From: a virus
Virus record (IMG/VR): IMGVR_UViG_3300046780_001084
Location: 1-54,672 of that record
Length of the DNA stretch: 54,672 nucleotides
Strand: one strand, 5' to 3'
Notes under the pieces: model-generated
What the model saw: the letters and a program-made list of their open reading frames with translations, nothing else
The model's database searches: none
Told to the model about the DNA's origin: nothing
Translations under genes and position numbers: made by a program
Shown here: positions 10,609-31,937 of the stretch, piece by piece
Position numbering within the stretch: position 1 is the first letter of the stretch
Layout of the letters: the number at the start of each line of letters is the position of its first letter

Positions 10609-10615
10609 CAATCTT
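10609..10615 (+). promoter_or_regulatory. M2 motif before gp25/LysM gene
   Basis: GGCAATCTTTGAAGC ends one base before the ATG at 10622. There is no clear Shine-Dalgarno besides the motif itself. Directly follows the terminator-like hairpin. Confidence 0.5.
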
Positions 10616-27346: not shown

Positions 27347-29505
27347 AATTCCTAGACATCGTCATCCCGGCGACTACCGAGGTTGTCGGTCGTGGACCCG
27401 GCCTCGCCGCGTACCTGAAGGGCCTCGCTGCGCTCGCGGGCGAGAACTTCTCGCTGATCCGCACGGGCGATGGCGTCGTCACGGTCGACGTCGACGCGTC
27501 ACACGGTCTCTCGGTCGGAGATCAGATTTTCATCGACGGCGTGTTGCCCACGGGCGAAGTGCCGGCCACCGACTCCGGAACCCCGAGCGGCAACTTTGCG
27601 AGCCCGAACGATACTCAGTCAGGCATCACCGCGGCCTCGATCCACTCGACCAACAGCCAGGCCGGCACGTACGAAGGCGTGTTCAGCCGCGCGATTCGCA
27701 ACCCCGAGGGGAGACTGATCATCATCGGCGGAGCCACCACTTCCGACGGCCTCACCTTCACCCCGAAGGACAACTTCACCGTGCTGGAAGTGACCGGCGA
27801 GACCGTGTCTGGCAGCGGCGGACGTGCGGTCGACTACCTCTGGACCCAGATCGCCCCGGACGGAGCACACGGCTTCAACCTCCCGAACTTCGGGTACCGC
27901 AACTTCGCCGCGTCCCTCCTGACCGACGGCCGTATTCTCTGCACGGGCGGAGCGATCGGCGACGATCTCACTGGCACCCCGGTGCTCGGCTACGACCTGC
28001 TCACCTTCATTCCCCCGGACTCCGTCTCACAGCAACAGGGGATGTTCGACAGCCGAGTCGCGCACGGACAGTGCGCACTGAGCGATGGCGGAGCGCTGGC
28101 CTCCGGCGGCTGGGCGGTCGCCGGCACCCCGCTCGCCACGTCCGAGCGCTTCGACGTGACGACCGAGAGCTGGGCCAACGACGCGGTCATGAAGGTCGCC
28201 CGCATGCACCACGAGCTGGTCGCACTCGACGACGGACGCGTGCTCGCGATCGGAGGTCAGAAGAACTCCGCTGCCACCAACCTCATCAACCGTTGCGAGA
28301 TCTGGAACAGTATCACCTGGGAGCTGACGGGCAACATGACGTACGCCCGCACCCAGTTTGGAGTACTGAAGCTCCCCGACGGCCGCGTGCTCGTCATCGG
28401 CGGTAACGGCTACAACCCGAGCCGCGCACACTCACCTGGAGCACTCAGCTCCTGCGAAATCTTCGACCCGAAAACGGGACTGTGGAGCACGATCGCTTCC
28501 ATGCGCAACGGGCGCTCGCATCCGGCCATCGCGTACCTCCCGACGGAGAACGCCGTGTACGTGACCGGCGGCGCGAACGGCGTGTTCAACGTCGAGGTCC
28601 TGGACTTGGACACCATGCGCTGGCACGTCTCCATGGCCCAGATCCAGACTCCCCACCTCGACCCCACGGGCGGCCTGGTGGGCACCGACGTGTTCGCCAT
28701 GGTTGGCGGCTGGGACCACGCCATCTCCACCGAGAAGACCAACCAGATCGTCGTCCCGGGCGAAGACCGCGTGTGGGAAGGCGCCGGCATCAACGGCATG
28801 CACCGGGTGGCCGAGGTTCCGGACGGTACCCATGTCATCGTCCACACCCGCGAGTACGACTACAGCCACTCCTACACCGTGGCCCGCGCGGGCGCTGACG
28901 TGACCCCGATGCGCGCCGAGGCTGCGCCTTCGACGGTTCCGGGCCCGTTCTCGTACGACGTCAAGACCGGGCTCGCGATCACCGCAACGGCTGGTACCAC
29001 CGACACGGCCTTCAACCGCGGCGTCCACTACTCGTCCGTGCACCTCACGGGCTTGGACCCGGCACTCGACTTCCCCGATGAGGAGGGGTGGCTGGTGTTC
29101 AACTTCGGCTACCACAACATGGTCGGTCCCGTCCGCTACCTGGGACGCCTGAGCGACGAGGACTTGATCCTCGATGCCGACGTACCATTCAGCGCGACCC
29201 TCCCGGCCGGTGCAACCGTGCGATTGCTGTCCGGACGTGTCCCGTTCGAGCCGGCGGCAGACCACCTGGTGGGCAACTTCTACGTCACCGGCACGGCCGC
29301 GGGCCGCGAAGCAGCCCGCCAGATCATCAACGACATCGTGGCCGCCGGCAAGCAGGTGTTGGTGACCGTGATCTACCCGGGCGACCGCGGCCTGGGCGGC
29401 GAGGGCTTCCCGCAAGGCGGCAGCTACAAGCTCTCCGACAAGGTCTCCGTGTGGGGCGGCGACGAGCTGGACAGCGAACTTCCGGCAGCCAGGAAGGGTC
29501 CGTAA
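27343..29505 (+). CDS. Kelch-repeat tail protein, 720 aa
   Basis: The N-terminal about 85 residues are a distinct domain (DIVIPATTEVVGRGPG). Residues about 110-450 carry Kelch blades: LIIIGGATTSDGL, NFAASLLTDGRILCTGGA, MHHELVALDDGRVLAIGGQ, RTQFGVLKLPDGRVLVIGGN and HPAIAYLPTENAVYVTGGA. This gives a beta-propeller of about six blades. The C-terminal 200 residues are beta-rich. It is the second propeller protein in this tail operon. The ATG at 27343 overlaps the upstream stop (ATGA); the longer upstream frame is an artefact. Confidence 0.75.
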   Translation: MKFLDIVIPATTEVVGRGPGLAAYLKGLAALAGENFSLIRTGDGVVTVDVDASHGLSVGDQIFIDGVLPTGEVPATDSGTPSGNFASPNDTQSGITAASIHSTNSQAGTYEGVFSRAIRNPEGRLIIIGGATTSDGLTFTPKDNFTVLEVTGETVSGSGGRAVDYLWTQIAPDGAHGFNLPNFGYRNFAASLLTDGRILCTGGAIGDDLTGTPVLGYDLLTFIPPDSVSQQQGMFDSRVAHGQCALSDGGALASGGWAVAGTPLATSERFDVTTESWANDAVMKVARMHHELVALDDGRVLAIGGQKNSAATNLINRCEIWNSITWELTGNMTYARTQFGVLKLPDGRVLVIGGNGYNPSRAHSPGALSSCEIFDPKTGLWSTIASMRNGRSHPAIAYLPTENAVYVTGGANGVFNVEVLDLDTMRWHVSMAQIQTPHLDPTGGLVGTDVFAMVGGWDHAISTEKTNQIVVPGEDRVWEGAGINGMHRVAEVPDGTHVIVHTREYDYSHSYTVARAGADVTPMRAEAAPSTVPGPFSYDVKTGLAITATAGTTDTAFNRGVHYSSVHLTGLDPALDFPDEEGWLVFNFGYHNMVGPVRYLGRLSDEDLILDADVPFSATLPAGATVRLLSGRVPFEPAADHLVGNFYVTGTAAGREAARQIINDIVAAGKQVLVTVIYPGDRGLGGEGFPQGGSYKLSDKVSVWGGDELDSELPAARKGP

Positions 29506-29930
29506 TGCCTTCGATCGTACTTGCATCAGCACAGGTCATCCTGTTTGTCAACGGAAACCCGTTCGGTCGGGTCAACCGCTTCAGCTACAGCATCGACACC
29601 CCGCGCCGCAAGATCCACACCGTCGACTCGGTGCTGCCGTTCGAGCTGGCCACGGGCGTGACCAACGTGTCAGGCTCGATGGGGCTCTACCGTACCCACC
29701 TCGACGGCGCCGTGGAGGGGCCGGGCATGGTGGCGCCCCTGGAGGAGCTGCCGCGCGAGAAGTACTTCAACATCCTGCTGATCGACCTGGTCTCTCAGAC
29801 CGTGATTTTTCAAGCTGATTTCTGCTCGGTCGAGAGCCAGTCCTGGTCGTTCGAAGCCAAGAGCCTGGTCTCGGGCGCGGTGAACTTTTCTGCACTTTCG
29901 TACAACAATGAGGTGCGTCCGCTCGGGTGA
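29505..29930 (+). CDS. Tail tube-like protein, 141 aa
   Basis: MPSIVLASAQVILFVNGNPFGRVNRFSYSID, then VDSVLPFELATGVTNVSGSMGLYRTHLDGAVEGPG, with C-terminal NFSALSYNNEVRPLG. The pattern of a small beta protein with an extended hairpin matches XkdM/gp19-type tail tube or tube-initiator proteins. The sheath gene expected nearby is not in the window. Start overlaps the upstream stop as TAATG. Its own stop TGA forms part of the M1 motif preceding the serine leader block. Confidence 0.6.
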   Translation: MPSIVLASAQVILFVNGNPFGRVNRFSYSIDTPRRKIHTVDSVLPFELATGVTNVSGSMGLYRTHLDGAVEGPGMVAPLEELPREKYFNILLIDLVSQTVIFQADFCSVESQSWSFEAKSLVSGAVNFSALSYNNEVRPLG

Positions 29931-29948
29931 TTCAGTAGACTTAATCTT
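29928..29948 (+). promoter_or_regulatory. Tandem M1 and M2 motifs before serine leader/tRNA block
   Basis: TGATTCAGTAGAC (M1, 29928-29940) is followed at once by TTAATCTTGAG (M2, core 29942-29948). This is the only plus-strand M1 site in the window and the only clear place where both motifs run in tandem on one strand. If M1 and M2 serve different phases, the leader and tRNAs would be made in both. Confidence 0.5.
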
Positions 29949-29957
29949 GAGATCACC

Positions 29958-30005
29958 GTGAAGCACCTGTCATCGTCCAGTAGCTCTTCTTCGTCGAGTC
30001 GCTAA
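29958..30005 (+). CDS. Poly-serine leader peptide upstream of tRNA-Ser pair, 15 aa
   Basis: GTG start, then MKHLSSSSSSSSSSR and TAA. The ten serine codons are TCA TCG TCC AGT AGC TCT, followed by TCT TCG TCG AGT, so the first six serines use every serine codon once. A weak GAGAT lies at ribosome-site distance. The stop codon lies in the loop of a perfect 7-bp hairpin that ends 3 bases before tRNA-Ser(CGA). The layout matches a translational sensor such as amino-acid attenuation leaders, here with serine as the monitored amino acid, but no U-tract terminator follows. Whether it is translated is unproven. Confidence 0.5.
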   Translation: MKHLSSSSSSSSSSR

Positions 30006-30012
30006 GCGACTC
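29996..30012 (+). promoter_or_regulatory. Hairpin holding leader stop codon
   Basis: GAGTCGC-TAA-GCGACTC: seven perfect pairs with the leader's TAA as the loop. A ribosome finishing the leader would melt it; a ribosome stalled on the serine run might leave it folded. It could also be an RNase III or tRNA-processing signal. Confidence 0.6.
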
Positions 30013-30015
30013 CGT

Positions 30016-30101
30016 GGAAAGTTCTGGGCCGTGGGGTCCGATCCGCCTCGAAAGCGGACATAGCTACCTTCGGGTAGGGGGTTCGACTCCTCAGCTTTCC
30101 T
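30016..30101 (+). tRNA. tRNA-Ser(CGA)
   Basis: Class II tRNA, about 86 nt. Acceptor GGAAAGT pairs with GCTTTCC. The anticodon arm is TCCGC-CTCGAAA-GCGGA, giving anticodon CGA for UCG codons. The long variable arm is CTACC-TTCG-GGTAG, diagnostic of Ser/Leu/Tyr types. The D-stem is short (TGG/CCG), as in tRNA-Ser. The T-arm is GGGGG-TTCGACT-CCTCA with one weak pair. CCA is not encoded. UCG is one of the favoured serine codons of the surrounding structural genes. Confidence 0.88.
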
Positions 30102-30106
30102 CCTTC

Positions 30107-30196
30107 GGAAACGACGTCGCATGTCGGTTTTGCGCAGCAGGTTGCTAACTTGCCGGGCCCGCAAGGGCCCCGAGAGTTCGACTCTCTCCGTTTCCT
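30107..30196 (+). tRNA. tRNA-Ser(GCU)
   Basis: Class II tRNA, about 90 nt, 5 bases after the previous tRNA. Acceptor GGAAACG/CGTTTCC is perfect. The anticodon arm is GCAGG-TTGCTAA-CTTGC, giving GCU for AGC/AGU codons. The variable arm is GGGCCC-GCAA-GGGCCC, a 6-bp stem with a GNRA loop. The T-arm GAGAG-TTCGACT-CTCTC is perfect. CCA is not encoded. Together the two tRNAs read the two frequent serine codons of this GC-rich genome. Confidence 0.88.
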
Positions 30197-30207
30197 CTGG
30201 CGACACG

Positions 30208-30214
30208 CAATCTT
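30208..30214 (+). promoter_or_regulatory. M2 motif before structural gene
   Basis: CGCAATCTTAAGGGTAACC, CAATCTT 10 bases before the ATG at 30225; AAGGG may serve as ribosome site. It would restart structural transcription after the tRNA block. Confidence 0.5.
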
Positions 30215-30224
30215 AAGGGTAACC

Positions 30225-31937
30225 ATGGCCGTTCTCCGCCAAGCTAACCTCCTGGGCAATCAGCGCGTCGACATCCCGCACCTGCGCTCGATCGAGTCGG
30301 CGGTGGCCGGCGACATCGACCTTCTCGCTGGCGTCATGATCGCCGGCAAGGCGCCGCTCATCACCGAGGGCTTCTACGTGCTCTCGACGGGCATCACCAT
30401 CGCGACCGGACTCAAGATCCGCGTCGCCGACAGCAGCCTCATTCACTTCCTTGCGTCCGAGTCCGGATCGATCTTCCACGTGCCGTCCGATCGCCCCGAC
30501 GAACAACTGAACTCGGTCAACCCGCGCATCATCGGCAGCTTCACTTCGGGCATGGTCAACTACGTCGGCCTCGACTTCGTTCGCGAAGCGGACGATACGA
30601 CGGTCGACCTCGTCGAGTTCATCGACTCGGACTCGGAGCTGGAGACGCCGGTCCAGGTGCCGCTCGGGCGCACGCTCGACTACCGCATCGTCATCACGAC
30701 GCTGGACTTCGACAACAACCCCGGTATCTGCCCGATCGCGAAGGTCACGCTCGACGACGCCAACAACGTCACCGTGCTGGAGGATGCGCGTCGTTTCGCA
30801 TTCCGCCTCGGCTCGGGCGGCACGATCCCGAACATCAAGAACTCCTATGCGTGGCCGGCCGGCCGCGCGGAGAACACGAGTGGTGACGTGTTCGTCGGCG
30901 CCGACAAAGCCATCGGCAATTTCAAGGACTGGATGGACGCGATCATGTCGCGTATGTGGGAGGTAGGCGGCGGCGAGTACTGGTACTCACCCACCAACCC
31001 GATCAACGAACGCCTCGCGCGTACGGGCTCTCCGTTCGTCTCGAACGGCGAGTACTTCGAGTGGGACGGAGCGAACATTCACTGGAAGGGCCTGGTCTGG
31101 ATCTTCGCGAACTCGACCGGCGTCGTCAACCCGGTCCAGGACCAAGCTTCCGACTCGGCGGGCCTCACCGACCTCGCTGACGGCGAGTGTATCTACGTCG
31201 ACGTCGACCGCACGCAGGACACCACGATCATCGCCGCCAAGGCTGCCCTCGCGACGCTGGGGTCGCCAGAGATCCCGGGCTCCCGCTACGTCATCGCGTG
31301 GCGCCACAGCAACGACATCTACACGCGTGACCAGTCGTACGCGGTCAACTCTGCGTTCAAGAACGCGACCACCGCGGCGGGTGGCATGGTCAAGCTTTCG
31401 GCCACGAACGGCACCACCTCGTATCCCGCTCAGGTCGCGACCGTCGACGACATCAACTACTTCGCGTTCGCAGGAGGTCTGAGCCGCAGCGGTGACTTCT
31501 TCGGCGGCGCAGGCGATCTCCAGATCGGTGGTTGGGGTCCGGAAGACAACAACGTCCTCATCAGGACCACCGAGACGCAGTACCAGACAGTGATCGACGG
31601 CGATAACAACTGGAGCATCAACGCAACGTCGGCACTCTGCGTTCGCCAGATGCACCCGTTCACGTCAAGCACCTTCTACCGCATCCTGACTCTCCAGGGT
31701 TTCGACGGCAATGACGCGCTCAACAAGGACAGCTTCTCGTTCGAGGCTGCCGGCACGATGCAGTGGAGGATGATCGAGGGCACTCCGGGACCGCCGGCCC
31801 ACACCTTGACGAGCCCTCTCCAATTCAAGACCTACTTCCGTACAAACGGCTTCACCACGCCCAATATTCGCGACCAGCAATGCATCATGGACCGTGACGG
31901 CAACATTACCGTCACGTGGGAAGGACCGGCTTACTAA
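30225..31937 (+). CDS. Tail fibre/baseplate appendage protein, 570 aa
   Basis: Begins AVLRQANLLGNQRVDIPHLRSIESAVAGDIDLLAGVMIAG, a helix-plus-strand start typical of proteins that dock to the baseplate. The body has conserved-looking blocks (YWYSPTNPINERLARTGSPFV, DLADGECIYVDVDRTQD, WRHSNDIYTRDQSYAVNSAF) also seen in uncharacterised long phage structural proteins. The C-terminal part is Ser/Thr/Asn-rich. The ATG at 30225 is used; the upstream frame runs through the tRNA genes and cannot be coding. Stop overlaps the next start as TAATG. Confidence 0.62.
   Translation: MAVLRQANLLGNQRVDIPHLRSIESAVAGDIDLLAGVMIAGKAPLITEGFYVLSTGITIATGLKIRVADSSLIHFLASESGSIFHVPSDRPDEQLNSVNPRIIGSFTSGMVNYVGLDFVREADDTTVDLVEFIDSDSELETPVQVPLGRTLDYRIVITTLDFDNNPGICPIAKVTLDDANNVTVLEDARRFAFRLGSGGTIPNIKNSYAWPAGRAENTSGDVFVGADKAIGNFKDWMDAIMSRMWEVGGGEYWYSPTNPINERLARTGSPFVSNGEYFEWDGANIHWKGLVWIFANSTGVVNPVQDQASDSAGLTDLADGECIYVDVDRTQDTTIIAAKAALATLGSPEIPGSRYVIAWRHSNDIYTRDQSYAVNSAFKNATTAAGGMVKLSATNGTTSYPAQVATVDDINYFAFAGGLSRSGDFFGGAGDLQIGGWGPEDNNVLIRTTETQYQTVIDGDNNWSINATSALCVRQMHPFTSSTFYRILTLQGFDGNDALNKDSFSFEAAGTMQWRMIEGTPGPPAHTLTSPLQFKTYFRTNGFTTPNIRDQQCIMDRDGNITVTWEGPAY

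Follow-up and report, generated by a model that had tools for sequence, protein, structure and literature searches.

The serine leader and its tRNA cassette

We analysed the virus record IMGVR_UViG_3300046780_001084 of IMG/VR (positions 1 to 54,672) and refer to this whole stretch of 54,672 nucleotides as the window. The subject of this work is a small cassette on its plus strand, which consists of a serine-rich open reading frame (ORF), a hairpin and two serine tRNA genes. The ORF covers 29958..30005, stop codon included, and encodes (M/V)KHLSSSSSSSSSSR in 15 codons running from GTG to TAA (29958-30005: GTG AAG CAC CTG TCA TCG TCC AGT AGC TCT TCT TCG TCG AGT CGC TAA). Ten consecutive serine codons occupy 29970..29999, and an in-frame stop lies 10 codons upstream of the GTG. 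The TAA forms the loop of a perfect 7-bp hairpin, GAGTCGC-TAA-GCGACTC, on the same strand at 29996..30012 (arms 29996-30002 and 30006-30012). A class II tRNA-Ser with anticodon CGA starts 3 nt past this hairpin (30016..30103, plus strand, called by ARAGORN), and a second class II tRNA-Ser with anticodon GCU follows at 30107..30195 on the plus strand. This second gene is not called by ARAGORN in the window and is called in the homologous loci L002 and L003. The Rfam model of tRNA-Sec (RF01852), which has a long variable arm, matches both genes below its gathering score (30015-30101 with 32.3 bits and 30107-30195 with 31.1 bits). The serine ORF, the hairpin around its stop codon and the tandem tRNA genes had been described in an initial annotation of this DNA and are confirmed here in the sequence, by ARAGORN and by Rfam.

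The run of ten serines had also been judged unlikely to arise by chance, and this holds. The next-longest serine run in the window has 7 codons. None of 20,000 segments drawn from ORFs of the related 182-kb phage G003, listed mechanically at a length of at least 250 amino acids and possibly including spurious frames, reaches the 10 serines in 14 residues of the leader.

Conservation at the serine site

Relatives were sought by scanning viral contigs with the structural protein encoded upstream of the cassette. The leader is present in all three related records that have tRNAs at this site (L001, L002 and L003), and none of them keeps the tRNAs and has lost the ORF, a loss that the initial annotation had named as a refuting observation. 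L001 carries an identical leader cassette. In L002 the leader is identical over 48/48 positions plus 27/27 upstream and the upstream gene is 92.7% identical; the tRNAs have diverged from those of the window, with only 54/92 (Ser CGA) and 69/94 identical positions. L003, which belongs to G003, has the ORF MKRTSSSSPSSSSR in frame; it starts with ATG, differs in its codons and by a 3-nt indel, and the hairpin and both tRNA positions are retained. The stop hairpin keeps 7 bp, G-U pairs included, in both L002 and L003, with loops of 4 nt. For L003 ARAGORN calls only Ser(GCU); the first tRNA is recognised by alignment (63/91 to L002) and by eye has the anticodon CGA with a C before it.

At related junctions without tRNAs the leader is absent in 12 of 12 cases (L004, L005, L006, L007, L010, L011, L057, L058, L059, L060, L061 and Myxococcus phage Mx1), among which L004-L006 and L010/L011 are near-copies. 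Searches of phage DNA by blastn, of genome contigs with the tail protein and with leader DNA patterns beyond the known records gave no further match.

Promoter-like elements and flanking genes

The leader is located close behind two short elements that may act as promoter elements. The first is a ten-base element, GATTCAGTAG, at 29929..29938 on the plus strand, which is the window variant of GATTCGATAG. Counting the pattern that covers both variants, we find 4 copies in the window (mean 0.23 in mononucleotide shuffles), at 29929, 7961(-), 40893(-) and 46750(-), and 26 in G003 (mean 0.57). All 4 copies in the window read GATTCAGTAG and all 26 in G003 read GATTCGATAG, and each phage has its own variant directly before the serine leader, pointing to co-evolution with a transcription factor of the phage. 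The second element is AATCTT at 29943..29948 (plus strand). The GTG of the leader lies 9 nt behind it, like other genes of this phage. The window contains 18 copies of AATCTT, where 7.7 would be expected; 9 of them have an ORF of at least 80 amino acids starting with ATG within the next 30 nt, in 7 cases at 6 to 11 nt. In G003, 36 of 64 copies precede an ORF of at least 13 amino acids at 4-15 nt, the top count among 60 arrangements of the same letters. No site of the sigma-70 type was found for the window leader.

AATCTT also stands just before genes at window positions 10610, 13153, 19958, 23670, 29943, 30209, 33381, 34699 and others, and before many genes in G003 and in the part of Mx1 that was read (99.9 kb). 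In G003 the ATG most often follows at 6 nt (12/29 long ORFs), as expected if AATCTT is a -10-like element and the mRNAs are leaderless.

Upstream, the stop codon of a structural gene of the tail or baseplate region adjoins the cassette (29505..29930, plus strand, 141 amino acids; PHROG 985 'virion structural protein', E 5.5e-4); relatives of this gene occur in L001-L007 and Mx1. Downstream, a fibre-like structural gene of 570 amino acids, named by position and without a PHROG match, covers 30225..31937 on the plus strand. It appears to have its own start, because a further AATCTT lies at 30209..30214 (plus strand); of the 12 related junctions that lack the cassette, 11 keep this element. That the leader controls the tail genes behind it, as proposed in the initial annotation, is therefore doubtful and is not favoured here.

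Cognate leaders in Mx1-like phages

Leaders of this kind precede other tRNA units of related phages. In G003, the serine unit, a leucine unit and two large mixed tRNA units all open with an ORF rich in the amino acids served by the tRNAs behind it. The leucine leader MFTRLLSRLSLLLA, found by the rule of AATCTT plus a mini-ORF, lies before three tRNA-Leu genes and has its stop codon in a hairpin loop. Leader A, MLTNTNVNVMIAEANKAEANVCAAGMGWAGGAKVEATLK, stands behind AATCTA and before an Asn-Val-Val-Ala-Lys-Met-Gly-Gly-Lys-Trp-Glu unit. Leader B, MLTATTYTTIRTGITTGGRIVRYPRHQQHQRPAQGALDRFDPSGIK, also behind AATCTA, precedes a Phe-Asp-Pro-His-Tyr-Thr-Thr-Gln-Ile-Arg-Arg-Gln unit. These mixed leaders contain all 8 (A) and all 9 (B) amino acids served, the set of A being taken without Arg, as the Arg tRNA pair is located behind an HNH-like gene and leader A has no Arg. 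In G004 and G005, a leader before Tyr-Phe-Pro-Leu-Ser likewise contains every cognate amino acid.

Cognate residues make up 31/38 of leader A, 32/45 of B, 6/13 of the leucine leader and 8/13 of the serine leader of G003, 10/14 of the window leader, 25/34 in G004 and 23/32 in G005. Among 20,000 random segments from the G003 ORFs, 15 reach the score of A, 6 that of B and 62 that of the leucine leader, and none reaches that of the two serine leaders, G004 or G005. The other frames of the same DNA contain no cognate excess for the serine leader, the leucine leader and leader A.

The Mx1-like family was collected by a capsid-protein scan, of which the best 80 of 90 matching loci were used. tRNA positions were sought in 84 records at differing thresholds and most tRNA places were read; the tRNA-matching records G031, G050 and G053 and single places in G016, G021, G026 and G027 were left unread. 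Further leaders in the family precede tRNAs for Pro (G016), for Tyr, Pro, Phe, Asn, Asp, His and Arg (G025), for Pro, Tyr and Leu (G044) and for Pro and Tyr (G043). In G013 the stop codon is the triloop of a 9-bp hairpin, CTTTACCCC-TAA-GGGGTAAAG.

Some observations concern G003 and its relatives more generally. G003 (L039, L040, L041) has about 30 tRNAs, 29 called by ARAGORN and one recognised by alignment, for 19 of the 20 amino acids, with none seen for Cys, and the serine pair alone sits in the structural gene region. Small genes that look HNH-like by eye, with an AATCTT of their own, lie beside tRNA genes downstream of the serine pair in L003 and at about 3550-3930 of L039 (reverse complement); they resemble homing genes in tRNA arrays. 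L180 (CALMSM010000181.1), a contig assigned to a Candidatus Saccharibacteria bin, has a gene for a capsid protein that shares 66% identity with the one of G003; it could be either a mis-binned phage contig in a metagenome-assembled genome or a phage of that host.

Cognate leaders in Caulobacter phages and Lacusarx

Outside the family, 79 positions were tested, and the five best all belong to Caulobacter phages and Sphingobium phage Lacusarx. CcrColossus has MTFSTHKPSTLKPATGAASLAHASLLTPATSKPSLSRSL before Pro Pro Pro Lys Leu Leu Leu His Ala Ser (p 4.8e-7). It was one of 15 groups intended as controls; the first survey, with the stop at most 80 nt from the tRNA, missed the ORF, the wider scan at 130 nt found it, and it was reclassed from control to find. 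At the same place, CcrBL10, CcrRogue, phiCbK and CcrSwift have a well-conserved 45-codon ORF annotated as 'hypothetical protein', followed by tRNAs for Pro, Lys and Leu and, depending on the phage, Thr, His, Ala or Ser. With the annotated P, K, L set only, CcrRogue reaches 13/44 cognate residues (p 0.057). phiCbK has a further leader before a Phe unit. A Caulobacter ORF before Glu-Asp tRNAs, MTHLLTRYEREATGLDTTTA, has p 0.38 and is not counted. Lacusarx has two leaders: MFTQTTLLTQCHYWQLLSSSSL, with 19/21 cognate residues, before Ser-Leu-Leu-Thr-His-Gln-Ser-Cys-Trp and by eye behind TTGACA-17-TATCAT, and MFTRFGKRDRREGERGFSL, with 15/18, before Lys-Lys-Gly-Asp-Glu-Glu-Gly-Arg-Phe.

The conservation of the Caulobacter ORF of 45 residues in four phages is what would be expected if the peptides themselves acted, as small proteins co-expressed with the tRNAs that bind, for example, tRNA or a synthetase. 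Against this, the poly-serine, leucine-rich and mixed 40-residue leaders have no evident common sequence and share only their tRNA-matched composition, and we consider action of the peptides very unlikely.

An ORF of phage KVP40 (L095, minus strand 8310; p 5.7e-4) was the best of six candidates and was not accepted. This ORF, VLLKLSLQQLLMTSKFISKICLRESYRLIVST, lies before tRNAs His-Cys-Leu-Leu-Ser and could be a weak further case.

Leader composition matches the downstream tRNAs

The match between leader and tRNAs was assessed jointly for 14 leaders chosen by hand. Homologous copies were omitted (L002, G003 Ser, G005, G043, CcrSwift, CcrRogue, the phiCbK Pro unit and CcrPW), as was the Caulobacter Glu-Asp leader. 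The leader's own tRNA set ranks first for 11 of the 14, including the window leader (10/14; rank 1 of 14), and second for G016, CcrBL10 and the phiCbK Phe unit. Every cognate amino acid is present in 12 of 14 leaders, the others being G025 and G044. None of 200,000 permutations reaches the total of the true assignment, and the same holds for the ten multi-amino-acid leaders taken separately (0/200,000).

The family was also scanned automatically: for each of 73 tRNA groups the best ORF with a stop at most 130 nt from the first tRNA was taken, which gave 11 groups with p<1e-3 and 6 with p<1e-5. When tRNA sets were swapped between groups (200 trials), the means were 1.4 and 0.3 and the maxima 4 and 2.

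These numbers have to be weighed against a set of opposing observations. By composition alone, G016, G025, G044 and the phiCbK Phe unit are weak (p 0.0025 to 0.07). Of the 11 automatic matches, the one in L078 coincides with the end of a gene annotated in Mx1; the match in L217 has a frame that is open 49 codons further up and is probably the end of a longer gene; others are homologous copies, and six distinct leaders remain in all. The L078 match had made Mx1 a candidate member (Ser, p 1.7e-4) and was rejected for this overlap with the annotated gene, a VWA gene. Other frames of the same DNA are somewhat raised in cognate residues for G003 B (23/46 and 26/46), G004 (11/35 and 14/35) and G005 (14/33 twice). 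Above the assigned start, the frame stays open for 119 codons in G003 A, for 100 in the phiCbK Phe unit and for 60 in G005, so that these starts were set by the AATCT motif or by choice. The G013 frame is open for 197 codons upstream, and its match needs Gln and Arg tRNAs that lie about 570 nt farther along. Most family tRNA groups that were read have no recognisable leader, and Mx1 has none in the stretches examined. Lacusarx has leaders at only two tRNA units and none in the gaps before Pro, Val, Ala and Asn. T4, T5, KVP40, FelixO1 and DSS3P8 have no convincing leader (none below 5e-4), and none below 5e-4 was found in the parts covered of Atu_ph07 (three regions) and phiM12 (two regions); phiW-14 gave no tRNA match.

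Several of these points, namely the singly weak members, the long open frames and the partly raised other frames, are those expected if the resemblance were chance or a by-product of composition near tRNA genes. The permutations, the 11 automatic matches against at most 4 in swaps, the lack of an excess in other frames for Ser, Leu and G003 A, and the ORF being kept in frame in G003 all argue against such an origin, to which we give hardly any credence. We conclude that the serine leader is real and, judged by anatomy and comparison, a member of a class of tRNA-cognate leader ORFs found in at least three phage groups. We propose to define this class as short ORFs, mostly behind a promoter-like element, with codons that match the downstream tRNAs and often with an end at or near a hairpin.

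Codon choice

The first six serine codons of the window leader use each of the six serine codons once, as the initial annotation pointed out. The pattern is not conserved: the G003 leader uses 5/6 codons and lacks TCC. Six different codons are unremarkable against uniform choice (1360/5000) and unusual against the usage in nine window genes (90/5000), because the rare codons TCT/TCA/AGT make up 5/10 in the leader compared with 10.8% (P 0.002). With G003 usage as proxy for G004, G005 and Lacusarx, codon variety exceeds usage in 5 of 9 leaders (counts of 5,000: window 90, G003 B 51, G004 17, G005 0, Lacusarx Ser 1), and it is not outstanding for G003 Ser, Leu and A and for the Lacusarx Lys leader. 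Against uniform choice, only the Lacusarx Ser leader (148/5000) and G005 (270/5000) are near the edge. The varied codons fit a sensor that would cover all isoacceptors, and do not prove it.

These data also bear on the possibility that the ORF is a translated spacer without sensing, which recruits ribosomes, keeps Rho off or sets up a processing hairpin and in which the amino acids are irrelevant. The position of the leaders at the start of tRNA units, the hairpin at the end of some of them and the lack of a terminator in the window copy would all suit such a spacer. It does not predict residues that mirror the downstream tRNAs, serine content that recurs after codon changes in G003, or rare serine codons in the window leader, and we regard it as unlikely.

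Hairpins, terminators and switch anatomy

Mutually exclusive stems together with a U-tract terminator are found in G025, G044, CcrSwift, CcrBL10 and the phiCbK Phe unit. In G025 the stem AGGCTTGTGTTC:GAACACAGGCCT overlaps the terminator AGGCCTCC:GGAGGCTT+TTTTATTTTT. In G044 the stem AGGGCTTG:CAAGCCCT overlaps AAGCCCTC:GAGGGCTT+TTGCTTTT, and G043 has the same spacer. The stems of CcrSwift and CcrBL10 are CGGGTGC:GCACCCG, GGAGCCGC:GCGGCTCC and AAGGCGG:CCGCCTT+TTCTTTTT. In the phiCbK Phe unit a stem that begins inside the ORF competes with GAAGGCCCGCCTGG:CCAGGCGGGCCTTT. The records of phiCbK and CcrSwift have a predicted rho-independent terminator annotated between the ORF and tRNA-Pro. A consensus terminator scanner (loops of 3-8 nt, strict T-run) called none in the CcrSwift stretch; on L193 and L203 its windows lay outside the leaders and speak neither for nor against terminators there. 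No U-tract was seen between leader and tRNAs in CcrColossus. As read from single sequences, the competing stems before tRNA operons are the anatomy of a trp-type attenuator.

The same stems bear on another use of such ORFs. Lambda bar minigenes offer the comparison case for a tRNA sink, in which a minigene ties up or drops cognate peptidyl-tRNA and thereby slows host translation or pauses the phage programme. Short ORFs full of codons for the same tRNAs, with a start close to a promoter-like element, resemble this arrangement. Exactly these tRNAs are encoded directly downstream, however, and the alternative stems and terminator of several members would be needless for a sink, which we therefore hold to be a very improbable function.

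The stem around the stop codon varies among members. It has 7 bp in the window, L002, G003 Ser and G003 Leu, 9 in G013, 6 in G016 and G025, 5 in G004, G005 and Lacusarx Ser, 3 in G044 and Lacusarx Lys and 2 in G003 A and B. Among 193 ORF ends of G003 used as control, with G-U pairs allowed, 2 have a stem of at least 7 bp, 18 of at least 6 and 47 of at least 5. Because control ends rarely reach such stems, the stop-loop hairpin stands out in the Ser, Leu and G013 leaders; it is not a general feature.

In the window, no terminator-like site lies between leader and tRNAs, and the sole terminator-like match is the T-arm of the second tRNA. The initial annotation had stated that there is no U-tract terminator; this is true of the window copy and does not extend to the class, other members of which do carry terminators. 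Pairing between leader and first tRNA was considered as a switch, since the predicted fold of 29954-30196 pairs the serine codons with the 5' half of this tRNA. It was rejected: synonymous leaders pair as well or better in 323/500 cases for the window, 297/500 for L002 and 372/500 for L003, and among ten leaders only G003 B stood out (17/500).

A model for leader function

From this anatomy, the window ORF is probably the translated leader of a small phage transcription unit for the two serine tRNAs, and the leaders of this class probably are ribosome-mediated attenuators that sense cognate aminoacyl-tRNA. The leading ribosome would read the leader as a test strip. Where any one cognate aminoacyl-tRNA is scarce, through cuts by anticodon nucleases, amino-acid shortage or the demand of the phage itself, the ribosome would stall early, the RNA would fold and the tRNAs would be made. 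With ample supply, it would reach the stop codon and melt or cover the structure, and tRNA output would go down. We infer translation, stalling and the direction and output of control from sequence features. Anatomy and comparison lend strong support to the central idea of the initial annotation, in which a leader placed before tRNA-Ser genes would monitor serine-tRNA supply.

For the members with terminators (G025, G043/G044 and several Caulobacter phages), the attenuation reading is anatomically strong, and the output would be transcriptional read-through as in trp-type attenuation. The window copy fits less well. It has a single stop-loop hairpin, no mutually exclusive stems were found in it, and it is without an intrinsic terminator between leader and tRNAs. 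As for the stop-loop stem, G003 A and B lack it, and in G004, G005, G044 and Lacusarx it does not stand out. These points count against the attenuation reading. A ribosome at the stop codon of the window leader would mask both the hairpin and the 5' end of tRNA-Ser(CGA); because of this and the missing U-tract, the output there may be tRNA maturation or Rho-dependent termination. More tentatively, the tRNA operons of Mx1-like phages, phiCbK-like phages and Lacusarx could be tRNA-loss alarms, each opening with a test strip of codons for just those tRNAs that it supplies, so that cutting or starvation of any one of them would switch on the replacement set. In the window type the output would then be access to the tRNA 5' end, rather than termination, under the control of the hairpin that has the leader's stop codon as its loop; we see this as a possibility on the doubtful side.

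Significance and comparison with known systems

It is a long-standing question whether phage tRNA genes compensate codon usage or replace tRNAs destroyed by host defences. The parts consulted of PMC10264068 describe phage tRNAs that replace tRNAs cut by host defences and concern changes in the anticodon loop. This would be a likely reason for a phage tRNA output that responds to tRNA loss; its main text, as far as covered, contains none of the terms 'leader', 'attenuat', 'operon' and 'promoter'. In the portions seen of the phiCbK genome paper (PMC3556154) and the Lacusarx paper (PMC5648845), 'leader' and 'attenuat' have 0 occurrences, and such a leader is not mentioned in the part seen of the Mx1 announcement (PMC10720576). 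A literature search, judged mostly by titles and the starts of abstracts, gave no account of leader peptides before phage tRNA genes.

If our reading is true, an operon sensor that reads exactly the codons served would indicate that tRNA supply is regulated and to what it responds, and the question would become testable in laboratory phages such as phiCbK and Lacusarx. Ribosome-mediated attenuation would then be known for tRNA genes and viruses as well as for amino-acid operons, with a single leader that corresponds to as many as nine amino acids. An annotated 'hypothetical protein' of Caulobacter phages would be explained as well.

Ribosome-mediated transcription attenuators of amino-acid operons include trpL and hisL and the multivalent thrL and ilvL. 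The phage leaders share with them a short leader ORF close behind a promoter-like element, in which codons for the amino acids under control are gathered, in some cases for more than one amino acid, as thr and ilv have them. Competing stems with a U-tract terminator add to the likeness in G025, G043/G044 and several Caulobacter phages. In contrast to these systems, the genes behind the leaders are phage tRNA genes and not biosynthetic enzymes or synthetases, up to 9 amino acids are matched by a single leader, and a terminator is lacking in the window copy and in some others, which carry a stop-loop hairpin. In T-box leaders of Gram-positive bacteria, the RNA binds the tRNA directly and no leader peptide is needed. 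The likeness is that tRNA charging would be sensed to control a tRNA-related gene; the difference is the leader peptide ORF, and the T-box covariance model has no match in 29500-30600 up to E 5. Serine codons as a sensor are described for Bacillus sinR in the part seen of PMC3862929, where no dedicated RNA or protein is involved. There the codons lie in the repressor gene itself.

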